Shown here: positions 3,700 through 8,023 of the stretch, piece by piece
Layout of the letters: each line of letters starts with the position of its first letter
Numbering within the stretch: the stretch's first letter is position 1
Assembly: GCF_023156285.1 (NCBI RefSeq)
Contig: NZ_JAKZAJ010000002.1
Location: 496,001-560,000, forward strand
DNA length: 64,000 bases
Direction of reading: 5' to 3'
Source of the DNA: Marinobacter koreensis
GTDB taxonomy: Bacteria > Pseudomonadota > Gammaproteobacteria > Pseudomonadales > Oleiphilaceae
Translations under genes and position numbers: made by a program
Notes under the pieces: generated by a model
The model's input: the letters and a program-made list of their open reading frames with translations, nothing else
What the model was told of the DNA's origin: nothing
The model's database searches: none

Positions 3700-4428
3700 T
3701 CAGGGAGCGGGCTTCCAGTTCCGGGCAATCAACTGTCTCTCCTGCGACGGATCGACTGCCTCTCCGTCCACCATACGATCGAGAGTGTCGTCCAGAACCG
3801 AACCGCCGGTGGCGGTCTGGTATGTTCCGTTGGACTGGGTCATCGCCACATTCCTGCTGGCCACATTCGTCCAACCCTGCCTGTCCGCCCCGTCGCGACA
3901 GGCAATGTTTTCCGAGGCGCTCCCGTCACGTTCCAGACGGTACTGGCGGCAGTACTGTCCATCCCGGTTCACAAACGTAAGCCTTGGCAGTATTCGCCCA
4001 TCGTCCGGAAGGACTCGCGGCTCACCGCTGGGAGTGGCCTCCAGTGCCTCGGCGACAGCCTCCCAGTCGGCCCCCTGGCCTGAATCCGGGAACGGGATCA
4101 GCTGTGCAATTCCAAACCCGAGTACCAGGACCGCCGCCACGGCCAGGCCTACCTGCTGATGCAGCCCATGCCGCACTTTCCGCCACCAGGGCAGGGCCAC
4201 AACCGAAGCCGGTTCAGGGTCGGAAAGCATCTCGGTCACCGCTGTCGGCAACGGTCTTTCATCAATGGCGGAATAGTGTTTGAGCAGTTGATCATCCGCC
4301 GAGGCCAGGGCCTCGAGACGCTCCGCCAGTTCGGGATCTTCACGGAGTCGATCACGGAGCGCCTGCATCTGTGCTTCGGGCAGTTCCGAATCCAGAAACG
4401 CGGACAGAAGTTCATCAGTGGTGTTCAT
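3700..4428 (-). CDS. Membrane anti-sigma factor with cysteine-containing periplasmic domain
   Basis: The 242-residue protein has an RseA-like N-terminal region (about 1-60, beginning ELLSAFLDSELPEAQ), one membrane helix at about 93-112 and a periplasmic C-terminal domain. That domain holds only two cysteines, C160 and C177, in a QYCRQY...IACR arrangement resembling the CREY...ACR pattern of 17-kDa surface-antigen-like domains. The ATG overlaps the sigma factor stop in ATGA, so the two are translationally coupled. Holding its sigma factor at the membrane is the family role. A disulfide between the two cysteines as part of signal sensing is inference. Confidence 0.85.
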   Translation of the reverse strand: MNTTDELLSAFLDSELPEAQMQALRDRLREDPELAERLEALASADDQLLKHYSAIDERPLPTAVTEMLSDPEPASVVALPWWRKVRHGLHQQVGLAVAAVLVLGFGIAQLIPFPDSGQGADWEAVAEALEATPSGEPRVLPDDGRILPRLTFVNRDGQYCRQYRLERDGSASENIACRDGADRQGWTNVASRNVAMTQSNGTYQTATGGSVLDDTLDRMVDGEAVDPSQERQLIARNWKPAP

Positions 4429-4916
4429 GGCAATGTCTCCGGTGATGCGGCTTTCAATAACTCACTCAGTGCCGCCCGGGCCCGGGCCAGGCGACTCATC
4501 ACGGTGCCTTTTCGAATGGCGAGGATCTCAGCCACTTCCCCGTAGGAAAACCCTTGCAGGGCAACCAGTGCAATGATCTGGCGCTGGTCTTCCGGCAACC
4601 GGGCCATGGCCGTCTCAACCCGGTTGAGCTCGATTGCCGAGCTCGTCTCCTGTTCGCCCTGAACCACCTGGCCTTCGGACAACTCCGGCCGTTCGGCGGC
4701 CTCCCGGCGAACCTTGCGGGCACGACATTCATCAATCCAGACGTTCCGGCATACGCGAAAGGCCCAGGGCCCGATATCGGCGTCCTCCGGCATCTCCCGC
4801 GTCAGTAATCGTTCCACGGTGCTCTGTAACACATCGTCTGCGTCCGCCATGGAGCCGGTCAGCGAATAGGCAAACCGTCTCAGGCCGGGCAAAATCTGGG
4901 CTATTTCCTGTCGCAT
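4425..4916 (-). CDS. ECF-type RNA polymerase sigma factor
   Basis: Sigma-70 family protein of 163 residues, the usual ECF size. Region 2 is at about 10-75 (LRRFAYSLTGSMADADDVLQ) and region 4 at about 105-155 (GFSYGEVAEILAIRKGTVMSRLARARAAL). The start MRQEIAQ at 4916 is chosen because an in-frame upstream extension would run through the promoter. The promoter just upstream (GGAAT, 16 bases, CGTT on the minus strand) matches the sites before the S8 protease and the secreted protein, so the factor probably activates itself and them. It is coupled to the anti-sigma gene by a 4-base overlap. Confidence 0.93.
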   Translation of the reverse strand: MRQEIAQILPGLRRFAYSLTGSMADADDVLQSTVERLLTREMPEDADIGPWAFRVCRNVWIDECRARKVRREAAERPELSEGQVVQGEQETSSAIELNRVETAMARLPEDQRQIIALVALQGFSYGEVAEILAIRKGTVMSRLARARAALSELLKAASPETLP

Positions 4917-4947
4917 GGTTCTCGCTGTTGATCCGTGATAACTGTAA

Positions 4948-4972
4948 AACGGTTCAGGCGGCAAAATATTCC
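4948..4972 (-). promoter_or_regulatory. ECF promoter of the sigma/anti-sigma operon
   Basis: On the minus strand GGAAT (4972-4968) is followed by 16 bases and CGTT (4951-4948). The predicted start of transcription is about 25 bases before the sigma ATG. The same arrangement occurs in the opposite direction at 4982-5006 and again at 7999-8023, which is why it is read as the recognition site of this sigma factor. Confidence 0.7.
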
Positions 4973-4989
4973 CGGGATCCGGGAATATT
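4965..4989. repeat. Inverted repeat joining the two divergent ECF promoters
   Basis: Two 11-base arms (AATATTCCCGG and its complement) separated by GAT. Each arm carries one GGAATATT element, the -35 of the leftward and of the rightward promoter. The two promoters therefore sit back to back with their -35 elements 9 bases apart. Confidence 0.85.
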
Positions 4990-5006
4990 TCTGTCCCGGG
5001 GCCGTT
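4982..5006 (+). promoter_or_regulatory. ECF promoter of the S8 protease gene
   Basis: GGAAT (4982-4986), 16 bases, CGTT (5003-5006), about 40 bases before the protease ATG. It mirrors the promoter of the sigma operon and shares the extended element GGAATATTT. Confidence 0.7.
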
Positions 5007-5045
5007 AACCTGACAGAGACATTCTTTGCAACGGATACAGACACG

Positions 5046-6383
5046 ATGAAACACCGCTCCCCGATCCGGTTCGTCGGCACATTCGGCCTGATTTGCATAG
5101 TGACGGTGGCGGACTGGAGCAACCCCGCGCACGCGCAGGTCCCGGGCGACCTGATCCGCCAGCCCGCCGATACGATCTCACAGCAGGTCGAGGAACGCGT
5201 GGAAAACCGGGTGGAACAATCCGTTTCCCAACGCCTGAACCAGCAAGTGGAAGAGCAGCTGTCGACAACGGCCAAAGCCGCCCGAAAACTCAGGGACAGG
5301 CTGGCCGTCCGGACATCGTCGGGCAAGGTCGCCTTTCATCAGGTCTCACTGCCAAACGGAGACATTGCCGTCGAACGACAGTGGCTCTTCACCGGCACCG
5401 CCGAGGAGATCGCCCGTCTTCGCCAGTCGGACATCCGGATAATCCAGCGGCAATCCCTGGAAAGCCTGGGACTGACGGTGGTTCGATTCGAAGTGCCCGA
5501 CAACCTGGATTCGAGAGACGCGCTGGCCAGGCTGCTGCCCGACGCGGCCGACCGACTGGACCGGAACCACGTCTACCGGCCCCAGGCGGGGGCCGGGCCC
5601 TCCTCTCCGAATAATCCGGAGCCGAATCCCGCGGGAACGTGCCCGATGCCGACACCTGTGGGCATGGTGGATACCGGTGTTGAGGTGGATCACCCAATGC
5701 TGAAAGGTGTTCAGGTAGAACAGCGGCAATTTCTGGAGGAAGACGGAGACACCCTGGCTGAACCCCGGAAACACGGCACGGAAGTGGCCGGCATCCTCGC
5801 CACTCACTTGAGCGCCGAAGCGTCTTCTGACGCCCGGCTGTTCAGCGCCTCGGTGTTCCATGGCCAGGATAACCGGTCGGACGGGGCAACCCTGGGGCAT
5901 CTGCTGCAGGGCCTGAACTGGCTGGCCAGCCAACCGGTCAGGGTCATCAACATCAGCCTCACCGGGCCAGACAACCGCATTCTGGAAACCGCCATTCAGG
6001 CGCTGGAAAAGCGGGGCATTCTGCTGGTGGCGGCCGTTGGCAACGCCGGGCCTTCGGCGCCGCCGCTTTATCCGGCCGCTTATCCGGGGGTCATCGGCGT
6101 AACCGCCATTGATCGCGACGACCGGCTCTACCGGTGGGCCAACAGGGGCAATCAGGTCATGTTTGCCGCCAGGGGCGTCAACATTCGCGTTGCCGATCCC
6201 GGTGGCGGACAGTCTGTGCAGAGTGGCACTTCACTGGCGGCACCGGTGGTATCGGCCATGCTCGCCTGCGAACAAACCGGCCAGTCACCGGACACCGCTG
6301 TGCAGCTCCTCAAAAACCGGGCCCGGGATCTGGGCCCGCCGGGGCGGGACCCCGGCTATGGCTACGGTGCAGTCGGTCCCTAG
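5046..6383 (+). CDS. Secreted S8 (subtilisin-like) serine protease
   Basis: The 445-residue preprotein has a signal peptide ending near NPAHA-Q (about 1-30) and a helical segment at about 35-80 with a hydrophobic residue every fourth position (RVENRVEQSVSQRLNQQV). Then come a possible prodomain and the subtilase domain (about 200-440). The triad is visible as D209 (GMVDTGVEVDHP), H243 (KHGTEVAG) and S396 (SGTSLAAP), with oxyanion N333 (VGNAGP). The start at 5046 is chosen for the signal peptide and its position after the ECF promoter. It is divergent from the sigma/anti-sigma pair. The substrate is unknown; the anti-sigma factor or the neighbouring barrel or secreted protein are candidates by inference. 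Confidence 0.92.
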   Translation: MKHRSPIRFVGTFGLICIVTVADWSNPAHAQVPGDLIRQPADTISQQVEERVENRVEQSVSQRLNQQVEEQLSTTAKAARKLRDRLAVRTSSGKVAFHQVSLPNGDIAVERQWLFTGTAEEIARLRQSDIRIIQRQSLESLGLTVVRFEVPDNLDSRDALARLLPDAADRLDRNHVYRPQAGAGPSSPNNPEPNPAGTCPMPTPVGMVDTGVEVDHPMLKGVQVEQRQFLEEDGDTLAEPRKHGTEVAGILATHLSAEASSDARLFSASVFHGQDNRSDGATLGHLLQGLNWLASQPVRVINISLTGPDNRILETAIQALEKRGILLVAAVGNAGPSAPPLYPAAYPGVIGVTAIDRDDRLYRWANRGNQVMFAARGVNIRVADPGGGQSVQSGTSLAAPVVSAMLACEQTGQSPDTAVQLLKNRARDLGPPGRDPGYGYGAVGP

Positions 6384-6388
6384 CCGGC

Positions 6389-7369
6389 TCAGAATCCGGC
6401 TTTGAGCGTGACGCTGGCCACCGTTTTACGATAATCCTCGGAATCCACAGCGGCGTGATAGAAGCCCTGGGACAGCTGTGTTTCGAGGCTGAAGATGCTG
6501 GAAAGGTCCACCGTCCAGCCCGCCTGAAAGACACTGGCGGTCTCGGCGCGGTCCTGGGTTTGGGTCGTGGTGGTGGGGGATGCGAACGGATTGAACAGCG
6601 GGTCCTGGGCCGCCGGGTCGGTGCTGGTCAGCACCACATCGTCGTAATCCCGCTTCTCGAAACGCCAGCCCAGGCTGAACCGGTTCCGGTGTCCGGACAG
6701 ATCAACGGTATGCACGAGTTTCGACCGGAAACGGACCAGGCGGTTGTCGTAATAGTCCGACCGCGCATCCTCCCGGTCACCATCGACACCCAGCAGCACG
6801 TGGGAGTGCGCATCGTTGAAAAACAGATACGCTTCGCCGGTCACGCCCTGGATGTCCGCATCCCGAGCCTCGCTGTCCTCAAAGGATTTCCGCTTTTTCT
6901 GCACACTGCCCCGCAGGTACACGTCGTCGCTCACCAGTGATCCGATAAAGACACTGGTACGGGCGTAATCGAGGAAAGGGTCCGAATCGAGCGTCGCGTG
7001 GGAGAAATGGTAGCTGGCTCCCAGCGTGAACGGATCAAAGTCATAGCCGGCCTCGGCGGACAGCAGATGAATGTCCTGGTCGAACTCGTCATAGGTCTGG
7101 TAACGGTTACCGGTGAACGAGTAGCCCAGGTTCAGGTGAGCCCTGTCACCCGGATTCCATTCGCCGTCCACGCCCGCCCCGATCAACCAGGCTTCATCAC
7201 TCTTGCCGGACGCGGCATTCAGGTTGTCCACCGTCAGGTTGCTATCGTATTCCATCCCTGTCTCAACGTGGCCGCTCAAGCCGGTACTGGACTCGGCCCA
7301 CACAGCGGGCGCCGATACCGCAAGACAGAGACTCAACATCGTTCTGGAACAGGATTTTCCGTACAGCAT
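6389..7369 (-). CDS. Outer-membrane beta-barrel protein
   Basis: The 326-residue precursor has a signal peptide ending near VWA-ESS and alternating strands rich in aromatic and charged residues. It has the C-terminal signature ending in phenylalanine (TLKAGF) expected for insertion by the Bam complex. No enzymatic motif is seen. It is convergent with the S8 protease, 5 bases apart, and lies 68 bases downstream of the secreted protein gene in the same direction, so it may be co-transcribed from the ECF promoter at 7999-8023. Barrel topology is inferred from composition and the C-terminus. Confidence 0.8.
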   Translation of the reverse strand: MLYGKSCSRTMLSLCLAVSAPAVWAESSTGLSGHVETGMEYDSNLTVDNLNAASGKSDEAWLIGAGVDGEWNPGDRAHLNLGYSFTGNRYQTYDEFDQDIHLLSAEAGYDFDPFTLGASYHFSHATLDSDPFLDYARTSVFIGSLVSDDVYLRGSVQKKRKSFEDSEARDADIQGVTGEAYLFFNDAHSHVLLGVDGDREDARSDYYDNRLVRFRSKLVHTVDLSGHRNRFSLGWRFEKRDYDDVVLTSTDPAAQDPLFNPFASPTTTTQTQDRAETASVFQAGWTVDLSSIFSLETQLSQGFYHAAVDSEDYRKTVASVTLKAGF

Positions 7370-7395
7370 GAAACACCTCTTCAGAGCGAAGACAA

Positions 7396-7417
7396 CCGGG
7401 TCCTGTTGCAGACCCGG
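7396..7417 (-). other. Intercistronic hairpin, secreted protein / barrel
   Basis: A perfect 7-base stem (CCGGGTC / GACCCGG) with an 8-base loop in the 68-base gap. No T-run follows it, so it is more likely to modulate message stability or partial read-through than to be a full terminator. Confidence 0.5.
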
Positions 7418-7437
7418 CCGTCACGTTTCAATGGTTC

Positions 7438-7950
7438 TTAAAGCAGGCCGTCCTGAGTCGCACCCTTGACGCTGCTCTTGACGTTGTTGCGGACCTCATT
7501 GCGCACGCTTTCCGATACAGACGCACCCACCTCGCCGCGGGTTTCAGTCCGTACCTCGGTCTTCCGTGCCTCCTCGACCCGGTTTTTCACTTCGTTCTGT
7601 TCCCGGGCCGCCGTATCCTGAGACTCCTCGGCTTTTGCCTCGGCCGTCGTCCGCACTCTTTCGCCAGCCTGAACGGCAGTGCTCTTCATCGCCTGTGACT
7701 CCTCGCGGGCCTGCTCACGGACTTTCTGGCCGTTTTTGCGCGCCTGCTCCCGAACGGCATCCCCGTGAACGTTGGCATCGCCGGAGGCCGATGCCCCGCC
7801 ACTGGTTTGCACGCCGTCCTGGCCGCTGGCCTGGGCGCTCATGTTGGCTTGCGCATTTACGTTGGCATCAGCAGAACCGCCAGCCTGGGCCGCGGAAGCA
7901 CCGGTGGCAACGAGTGAACAGATGGCAAGAGTAAGTAGCTGCTTTTTCAT
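7438..7950 (-). CDS. Secreted charged helical protein of unknown function
   Basis: The 170-residue precursor has a clear signal peptide (MKKQLLTLAICSLVATGASA), a low-complexity segment rich in Ala, Asn, Ser and Gln, and then a highly charged helical region. That region includes a stretch with valine at every fourth position (SVRNEVRNNVKSSV). The ATG at 7950 has the strong site AAGGAGG. An ECF-type promoter lies 50 to 73 bases upstream. The valine pattern resembles the N-terminal helical segment of the S8 protease. I recognise no family; a periplasmic or surface role is inference. Confidence 0.82.
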   Translation of the reverse strand: MKKQLLTLAICSLVATGASAAQAGGSADANVNAQANMSAQASGQDGVQTSGGASASGDANVHGDAVREQARKNGQKVREQAREESQAMKSTAVQAGERVRTTAEAKAEESQDTAAREQNEVKNRVEEARKTEVRTETRGEVGASVSESVRNEVRNNVKSSVKGATQDGLL

Positions 7951-7998
7951 GGTACGTCCTCCTTCTGAATGACCCATTTGGGTGACTTTCATCAGGAA

Positions 7999-8023
7999 GA
8001 CGGCTGGGGAGAGAGGTTATTCC
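7999..8023 (-). promoter_or_regulatory. Third ECF-type promoter, before the secreted protein
   Basis: On the minus strand GGAAT (8023-8019) overlaps the stop codon of the upstream antiporter gene, then 16 bases, then CGTC (8002-7999). The spacing and seven key bases equal those of the two promoters at 4948-5006. The transcript would start about 40 bases before the ATG at 7950. Confidence 0.6.

Follow-up and report, generated by a model that had tools for sequence, protein, structure and literature searches.

What does an extracytoplasmic function (ECF) sigma factor control when its promoter motif is found almost only beside its own gene? This question is raised by a stretch of 64,000 nucleotides from Marinobacter koreensis (contig NZ_JAKZAJ010000002.1, positions 496,001 to 560,000), hereafter called the window. 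A sequence-only reading of the window had proposed a regulon of five genes, encoding the sigma factor, an anti-sigma factor, an S8 protease, a secreted helical protein and an outer-membrane beta-barrel, served by three promoters of the form GGAAT-N16-CGT. All five genes and all three sites were found at the positions claimed (Table 1). Judged from sequence, the locus is almost certainly a self-contained sigma circuit of the ECF26 type with three promoters. The fuller explanation, in which this circuit produces a repeat protein for secretion together with its protease and, at low dose, a partner in the outer membrane, we regard as evenly balanced. The circuit is supported by the conservation of the promoters, the gene set, the period-4 repeats, the link between the repeat protein and the barrel, and a terminator, while induction of the protease by the sigma factor is supported by a published experiment in a relative (RpoE6/SMa0142, PMC6180224).

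Table 1 Features of the five-gene locus in the window (aa, amino acids; pLDDT, predicted local distance difference test; pTM, predicted template modelling score).
Feature	Position	Strand	Remarks
Anti-sigma factor, 242 aa	3700..4428	-	weak zf-HC2/RseA_N and anti-sigma matches
ECF sigma factor, 163 aa, ECF26-like	4425..4916	-	ATG at 4916; Sigma70_r2 2.3e-10, r4_2 3.6e-16
Sigma/anti-sigma operon promoter, GGAAT-N16-CGT	4949..4972	-	18/19 Marinobacter loci, spacer exactly 16
S8 protease promoter, GGAAT-N16-CGT	4982..5005	+	19/19 Marinobacter loci
Secreted S8 (subtilisin-like) protease, 445 aa	5046..6383	+	PF00082 2.3e-31
N-terminal period-4 segment of the S8 protease (VPGDLIRQPADTISQQVEERVENRVEQSVSQRLNQQVEEQLSTT)	5139..5270	+	0/300 shuffles reach the score
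Outer-membrane beta-barrel, 326 aa, 14 strands	6389..7369	-	AlphaFold2 pLDDT 88.4, pTM 0.80
Intrinsic terminator between secreted-protein and barrel genes	7390..7419	-	T run weaker here than in relatives
Secreted protein, 170 aa	7438..7950	-	signal peptide; disordered Ala/Ser/Gln N-terminus; long helix 59-168
Period-4 segment at the C-terminus of the secreted protein, V at each fourth residue	7441..7590	-	score 8.5 vs 2.8 in shuffles, 0/300
Secreted-protein mRNA leader, conserved, with ACCC..GGGT hairpin	7951..7999	-	
Secreted-protein and barrel promoter, GGAAT-N16-CGT	8000..8023	-	17/18 Marinobacter secreted-protein genes

We searched 58 genomes for orthologues of the protease and found clear ones in 14 further members of Marinobacter (46-53% identical). 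The five genes were in the same order in all of these relatives except L063, a 5.4-kb contig that stops within the barrel gene. In the Marinobacter comparison set of 19 loci, whose proteins are about 50% identical, the five genes were complete in 17, the other two being a truncated contig and a locus with Ns. A wider scan of 84,980 species genomes yielded 80 named loci. The ECF, anti-sigma and S8 genes were found together in 74 of these, and the ECF and S8 genes were divergent in 69 of the 73 loci scored. The genes flanking the cassette in the window adjoin it in only a minority of the Marinobacter relatives, at times on the other side. Since the flanking genes mostly differ between relatives, the five-gene cassette moves as a unit. 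Separately, a second, diverged set (L075, G036:C1:751800-767000) was observed in a genome that also holds the standard cassette; its sigma, anti-sigma and barrel genes lie in one operon, and its S8 gene is convergent and encodes an extreme EEAAEESA N-terminus. At another locus (L074, G035), the S8 and barrel genes are each broken into two frames, which may be due to sequencing error or decay.

The sequence-only reading had also held that the motif occurs only where it is needed. The three sites are indeed all the GGAAT-N16-CGT matches in the window and lie before the right genes, but their count alone is not above chance (3 vs 2.18 expected; at least three in 35 of 100 shuffles). Because three matches per 64 kb is the chance level, conservation has to be the test. 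We therefore counted spacers of 10-24 in the Marinobacter loci. The spacer of exactly 16 was found before every S8 gene and before all but one of the sigma genes and of the secreted-protein genes (Table 1), and these three genes had zero matches at any other spacer from 10 to 23. Each relative found in the 58-genome search retained the three sites, apart from L063, whose contig covers and keeps two of them. The anti-sigma gene had no match upstream in these loci, and the barrel gene had no conserved promoter of its own. In the 61 loci outside Marinobacter, the sigma promoter was kept with a spacer of 16 in 9 and with a spacer of 17 in 25. Column conservation of the promoter alignments was highest at the two boxes.

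The motif was also found to be confined to the locus at the genome scale. The stricter GGAATAW-N13-CCGT matches 6 sites in the entire genome (3.78 Mb), of which 3 belong to this locus, and GGAATAAA-N13-CGT has 26 matches in 11 relatives, 18 of them at this locus. The 8 matches elsewhere in these relatives have no gene in common, and a reversed control gives 12; we therefore rejected further regulon members elsewhere in the genomes. As the stricter motif is almost restricted to the locus, the regulon is self-contained. Loss of the gene set or of the motif among relatives had been named beforehand as an outcome that would speak against the regulon; both are conserved, and autoregulation with a dedicated regulon is strongly supported by the promoters, the gene set and the confinement of the motif. 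The -35 boxes of the sigma and S8 promoters face each other, 9 bases apart in the window and 9-10 in all relatives. This constant back-to-back arrangement suggests that two polymerases may compete or cooperate there. In the window, this promoter pair (4949-5005) holds the palindrome TATTCCCGGGATCCGGGAATA.

The regulators are of a known kind. The sigma factor is 40% identical to Sinorhizobium meliloti RpoE6 across sigma2 and sigma4, and RpoE6 has been classed as ECF26 (PMC6180224). Further ECF26 features found here are a promoter of the GGAATA/CGT consensus given for this group (PMC6180224, PMC6527743), with a 16-17-base spacer, and an adjacent three-part anti-sigma factor, whose gene overlaps that of the sigma factor. 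The anti-sigma factor comprises an N-terminal anti-sigma domain, one membrane segment and a periplasmic domain with two conserved cysteines. It is 24% identical to S. meliloti EcfR6, and its orthologues are 41-50% identical and always encoded directly after the sigma factor. The protease has a Peptidase_S8 domain whose triad, Asp209/His243/Ser396, falls in invariant columns of a 12-sequence alignment; a prodomain-like region precedes the catalytic domain, and the protein is 30% identical to the S. meliloti homologue SMa0142.

We then characterized the secreted protein, which had no Pfam domain above the cut-off. Its model reached a pLDDT of 70-80 over most of the helix and <50 elsewhere. The lag-4 excess of its C-terminal segment was 0.108, a value reached by 0 of 500 shuffles. 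Over 35 partner sequences, part of which were picked for low complexity or tetrads, residue identity was enriched at lag 4 (mean 0.134), lag 8 (0.098), lag 12 (0.069) and lag 11 (0.050), with little elsewhere. The composition of the repeat switches wholly by lineage, from Val at each fourth residue to VEDD, SSSN, LTGG or Ala/Glu 11-mers; only the period is conserved, so alignment searches miss this protein. A period of four was also found near the N-terminus of the window's protease (Table 1), and three alphaproteobacterial S8 proteases (L109, L119 and L126) carry 24-37 tetrads.

The repeat protein was found to be linked to the barrel across lineages. With a strict filter, a secreted low-complexity open reading frame (ORF) was present in 47 of the 80 loci vs none of 128 flank stretches, which were shorter. 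Its gene lies upstream of the barrel gene in gammaproteobacteria and directly after the S8 gene in barrel-less relatives from Xanthomonadales and Burkholderiales. A homologue of the barrel was likewise identified in 47 of the 80 loci, from Marinobacter, Microbulbifer, Kangiella and alphaproteobacteria including Marinicaulis and Hellea. Period-4 ORFs were found in 36 of these 47 loci vs 1 of the 33 without a barrel, and outside Marinobacter in 19 of 28 vs 1 of 33. Among the 36, that of L107 consists of a Met-Pro-Arg/Thr run and might reflect a low-complexity coding region read in a shifted frame, not a real protein. As an observation apart, the secreted-protein gene is present twice in a Marinobacter metagenome-assembled genome; the additional copy (L088:1095-1598) lies about 8 kb away from the other and has a similar leader and a GGAAC-N17-CGT site.

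The secreted protein and the barrel had been described as a pair under one promoter. The promoter is common to both, but a conserved intrinsic terminator stands between the genes. In nearly all Marinobacter loci compared, the gap holds a GC-rich hairpin followed by Ts, and the sequence of the hairpin varies while its pairing is kept. Given this terminator and a barrel gene that has no conserved promoter, the secreted protein should exceed the barrel. The mRNA leader of the secreted protein is highly conserved in Marinobacter (CTGATGAAAGC..ACCC-loop-GGGT..AGGAGG). In folds of single leader sequences, the ribosome site pairs with the bases that directly follow the -10 box, a structure that can form only if those bases are transcribed. 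No structure was supported when the leaders were folded as a consensus, and an Rfam scan of the region with E up to 1 returned no riboswitch or known RNA. We also considered a hammerhead-like CUGAUGA core in the leader and rejected it, since it is not kept in every sequence and its stems do not fit.

The barrel is probably a distant relative of Slam, as suggested by the sequences of its homologues. Slam (PF04575) was matched by 15 of 32 relatives of the barrel, and a Marinobacter orthologue (L077, from M. algicola DG893) matched SlipAM at 2.7e-9 over nearly the full domain. A sequence search for a solved structure related to the barrel found none.

Taken together, these features suggest the following mechanism. 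An envelope signal would inactivate the membrane anti-sigma factor and free the sigma factor, which would then read the three promoters, that of its own operon in positive feedback, that of the S8 protease and that of the secreted protein. Production of the secreted protein would be high, and that of the barrel, which would depend on read-through of the terminator, lower. The secreted protein and the protease, which have the four-residue repeat in common, would probably act jointly outside the inner membrane. At the outer membrane, the barrel would most likely carry or anchor the repeat protein, which the protease would process or clear, leading to an inducible protein layer or matrix. The most likely product is an inducible protein of the surface or of a matrix, served by a protease that processes it and by a partner in the outer membrane. 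The envelope or surface-maturation role suggested from the sequence is inferred. The specific assignment of export to the barrel and processing to the protease is more tentative, and we lean somewhat against it.

Several points weigh against this explanation, in addition to the selection of sequences for the period analysis. The period-4 repeat in the window's protease is short. The window's barrel itself gave no PF04575 match in the domain scan, and its model has no periplasmic N-terminal tetratricopeptide repeat (TPR) domain, the first strand starting at residue 29. The putative cargo is modelled as a long helix and has no C-terminal barrel (TbpBBD-like) domain, which is usual in known cargo of the type XI secretion system (T11SS). 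We did not adopt the T11SS label, as neither the TPR domain nor these cargo features were found. In addition, barrel-less lineages retain the protease and the repeat protein, which indicates that the barrel is not always needed. The structure of the barrel is also as close to passive channels, with CymA (Z 22.6) and OmpG (Z 20.9) as its best matches. It could accordingly be a passive outer-membrane channel, co-regulated with a repeat protein that is a periplasmic or surface structural protein, the two not being exporter and cargo. The missing TPR domain and a terminator that uncouples the expression of the two genes are in keeping with this. However, period-4 proteins strongly co-occur with the barrel across distant genera and the family has Slam matches, and we consider a passive channel unlikely.

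Quite unlikely, in our view, is a role for the S8 protease in signal relay, as a site-1 protease that would cut the periplasmic domain of the anti-sigma factor in positive feedback, with the secreted protein as a competing substrate or inhibitor that damps the response. Three observations speak for such a relay: in nearly all lineages the protease gene diverges from the sigma operon and is regulated together with it, the periplasmic domain with its two cysteines is conserved, and the repeat is common to both secreted products. The protease is itself a target, however, and so cannot act as the initial trigger; in addition, its N-terminus is variable, and a cleavage site was not identified. That the three sites are chance matches beside genes that are merely neighbours, although three are expected per 64 kb, is refuted by the strict retention of all three sites with a single spacer length in relatives that have diverged, by a gene set kept in different flanks and by the genome-wide confinement of the motif, and is extremely improbable.

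We compared the locus with known systems. On pSymA of S. meliloti, RpoE6-EcfR6 is encoded divergently from the serine protease SMa0142, an ECF26 arrangement described as widely conserved; RpoE6 overexpression induces SMa0142 from GGAATAGACCGACGACTCAGCCGT, and the role of RpoE6, the best-studied example, is stated as undefined (PMC6180224). The same promoter was recovered independently here. Both systems have an ECF sigma factor with a membrane anti-sigma factor, a divergent homologous S8 protease and GGAATA...CGT promoters, and this match in layout and promoter places the regulatory half of the window's circuit in a known kind. Unlike in the window, no barrel was found in the S. meliloti system, which has the additional targets SMa0139 and SMa0148 and a repeat based on Ser/Asn, not Val. 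This repeat, (SSSN)n, is encoded on pSymA by an unannotated ORF on the reverse strand (L076:3724-4182), which has a signal-peptide-like start. A GGAAT-N16-CGT site lies about 50 bases upstream of it, and the ORF annotated in the record is on the other strand. The repeat ORF may be the RpoE6 target SMa0146. The ECF26 factors RpoE1 and RpoE4 of the sulfite response (PMC6527743) have the same promoter type (-35 GGAAT, -10 CGTC), but their targets are sulfite-oxidising enzymes and not envelope proteins.

Slam barrels are 14-stranded, as the barrel of the window is predicted to be. The likeness to Slam/T11SS (PF04575, DUF560) extends to the family matches in relatives and to a gene that adjoins a secreted-protein gene, while the differences lie in the missing TPR domain and in a putative cargo of helical repeats. 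With the 14-stranded channels CymA and OmpG, the barrel has the fold in common but only 8-11% identity, and no sequence relationship is shown. The terms 'sigma factor' and 'Marinobacter' are absent from the Slam/T11SS papers PMC12282271 and PMC8406197, and the literature searched, which did not cover the main ECF reclassification paper, held no description of a barrel or repeat protein in ECF26/S8 loci. The earlier statement that no such system had been described thus fails for the ECF26/S8 core (PMC6180224) and holds, in the literature searched, for the pairing of a period-4 protein with a 14-stranded barrel. The regulator and protease core is known; what appears to be new is the secreted period-4 low-complexity protein, and often the barrel, that accompany it. 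More speculatively, and with the balance of probability against it, ECF26/S8 loci across Proteobacteria might control secreted proteins of a class so far unrecognised, whose defining feature is a period of four residues and not the sequence, and which would co-assemble with a protease carrying the same repeat and be exported or anchored by a TPR-less Slam-like barrel, forming a new inducible surface-protein system. The repeat protein might also represent an unusual kind of cargo for Slam-like barrels. The combination of an ECF26 factor with a divergent serine protease is widespread, and the repeat protein and the barrel provide this group with a concrete hypothesis.

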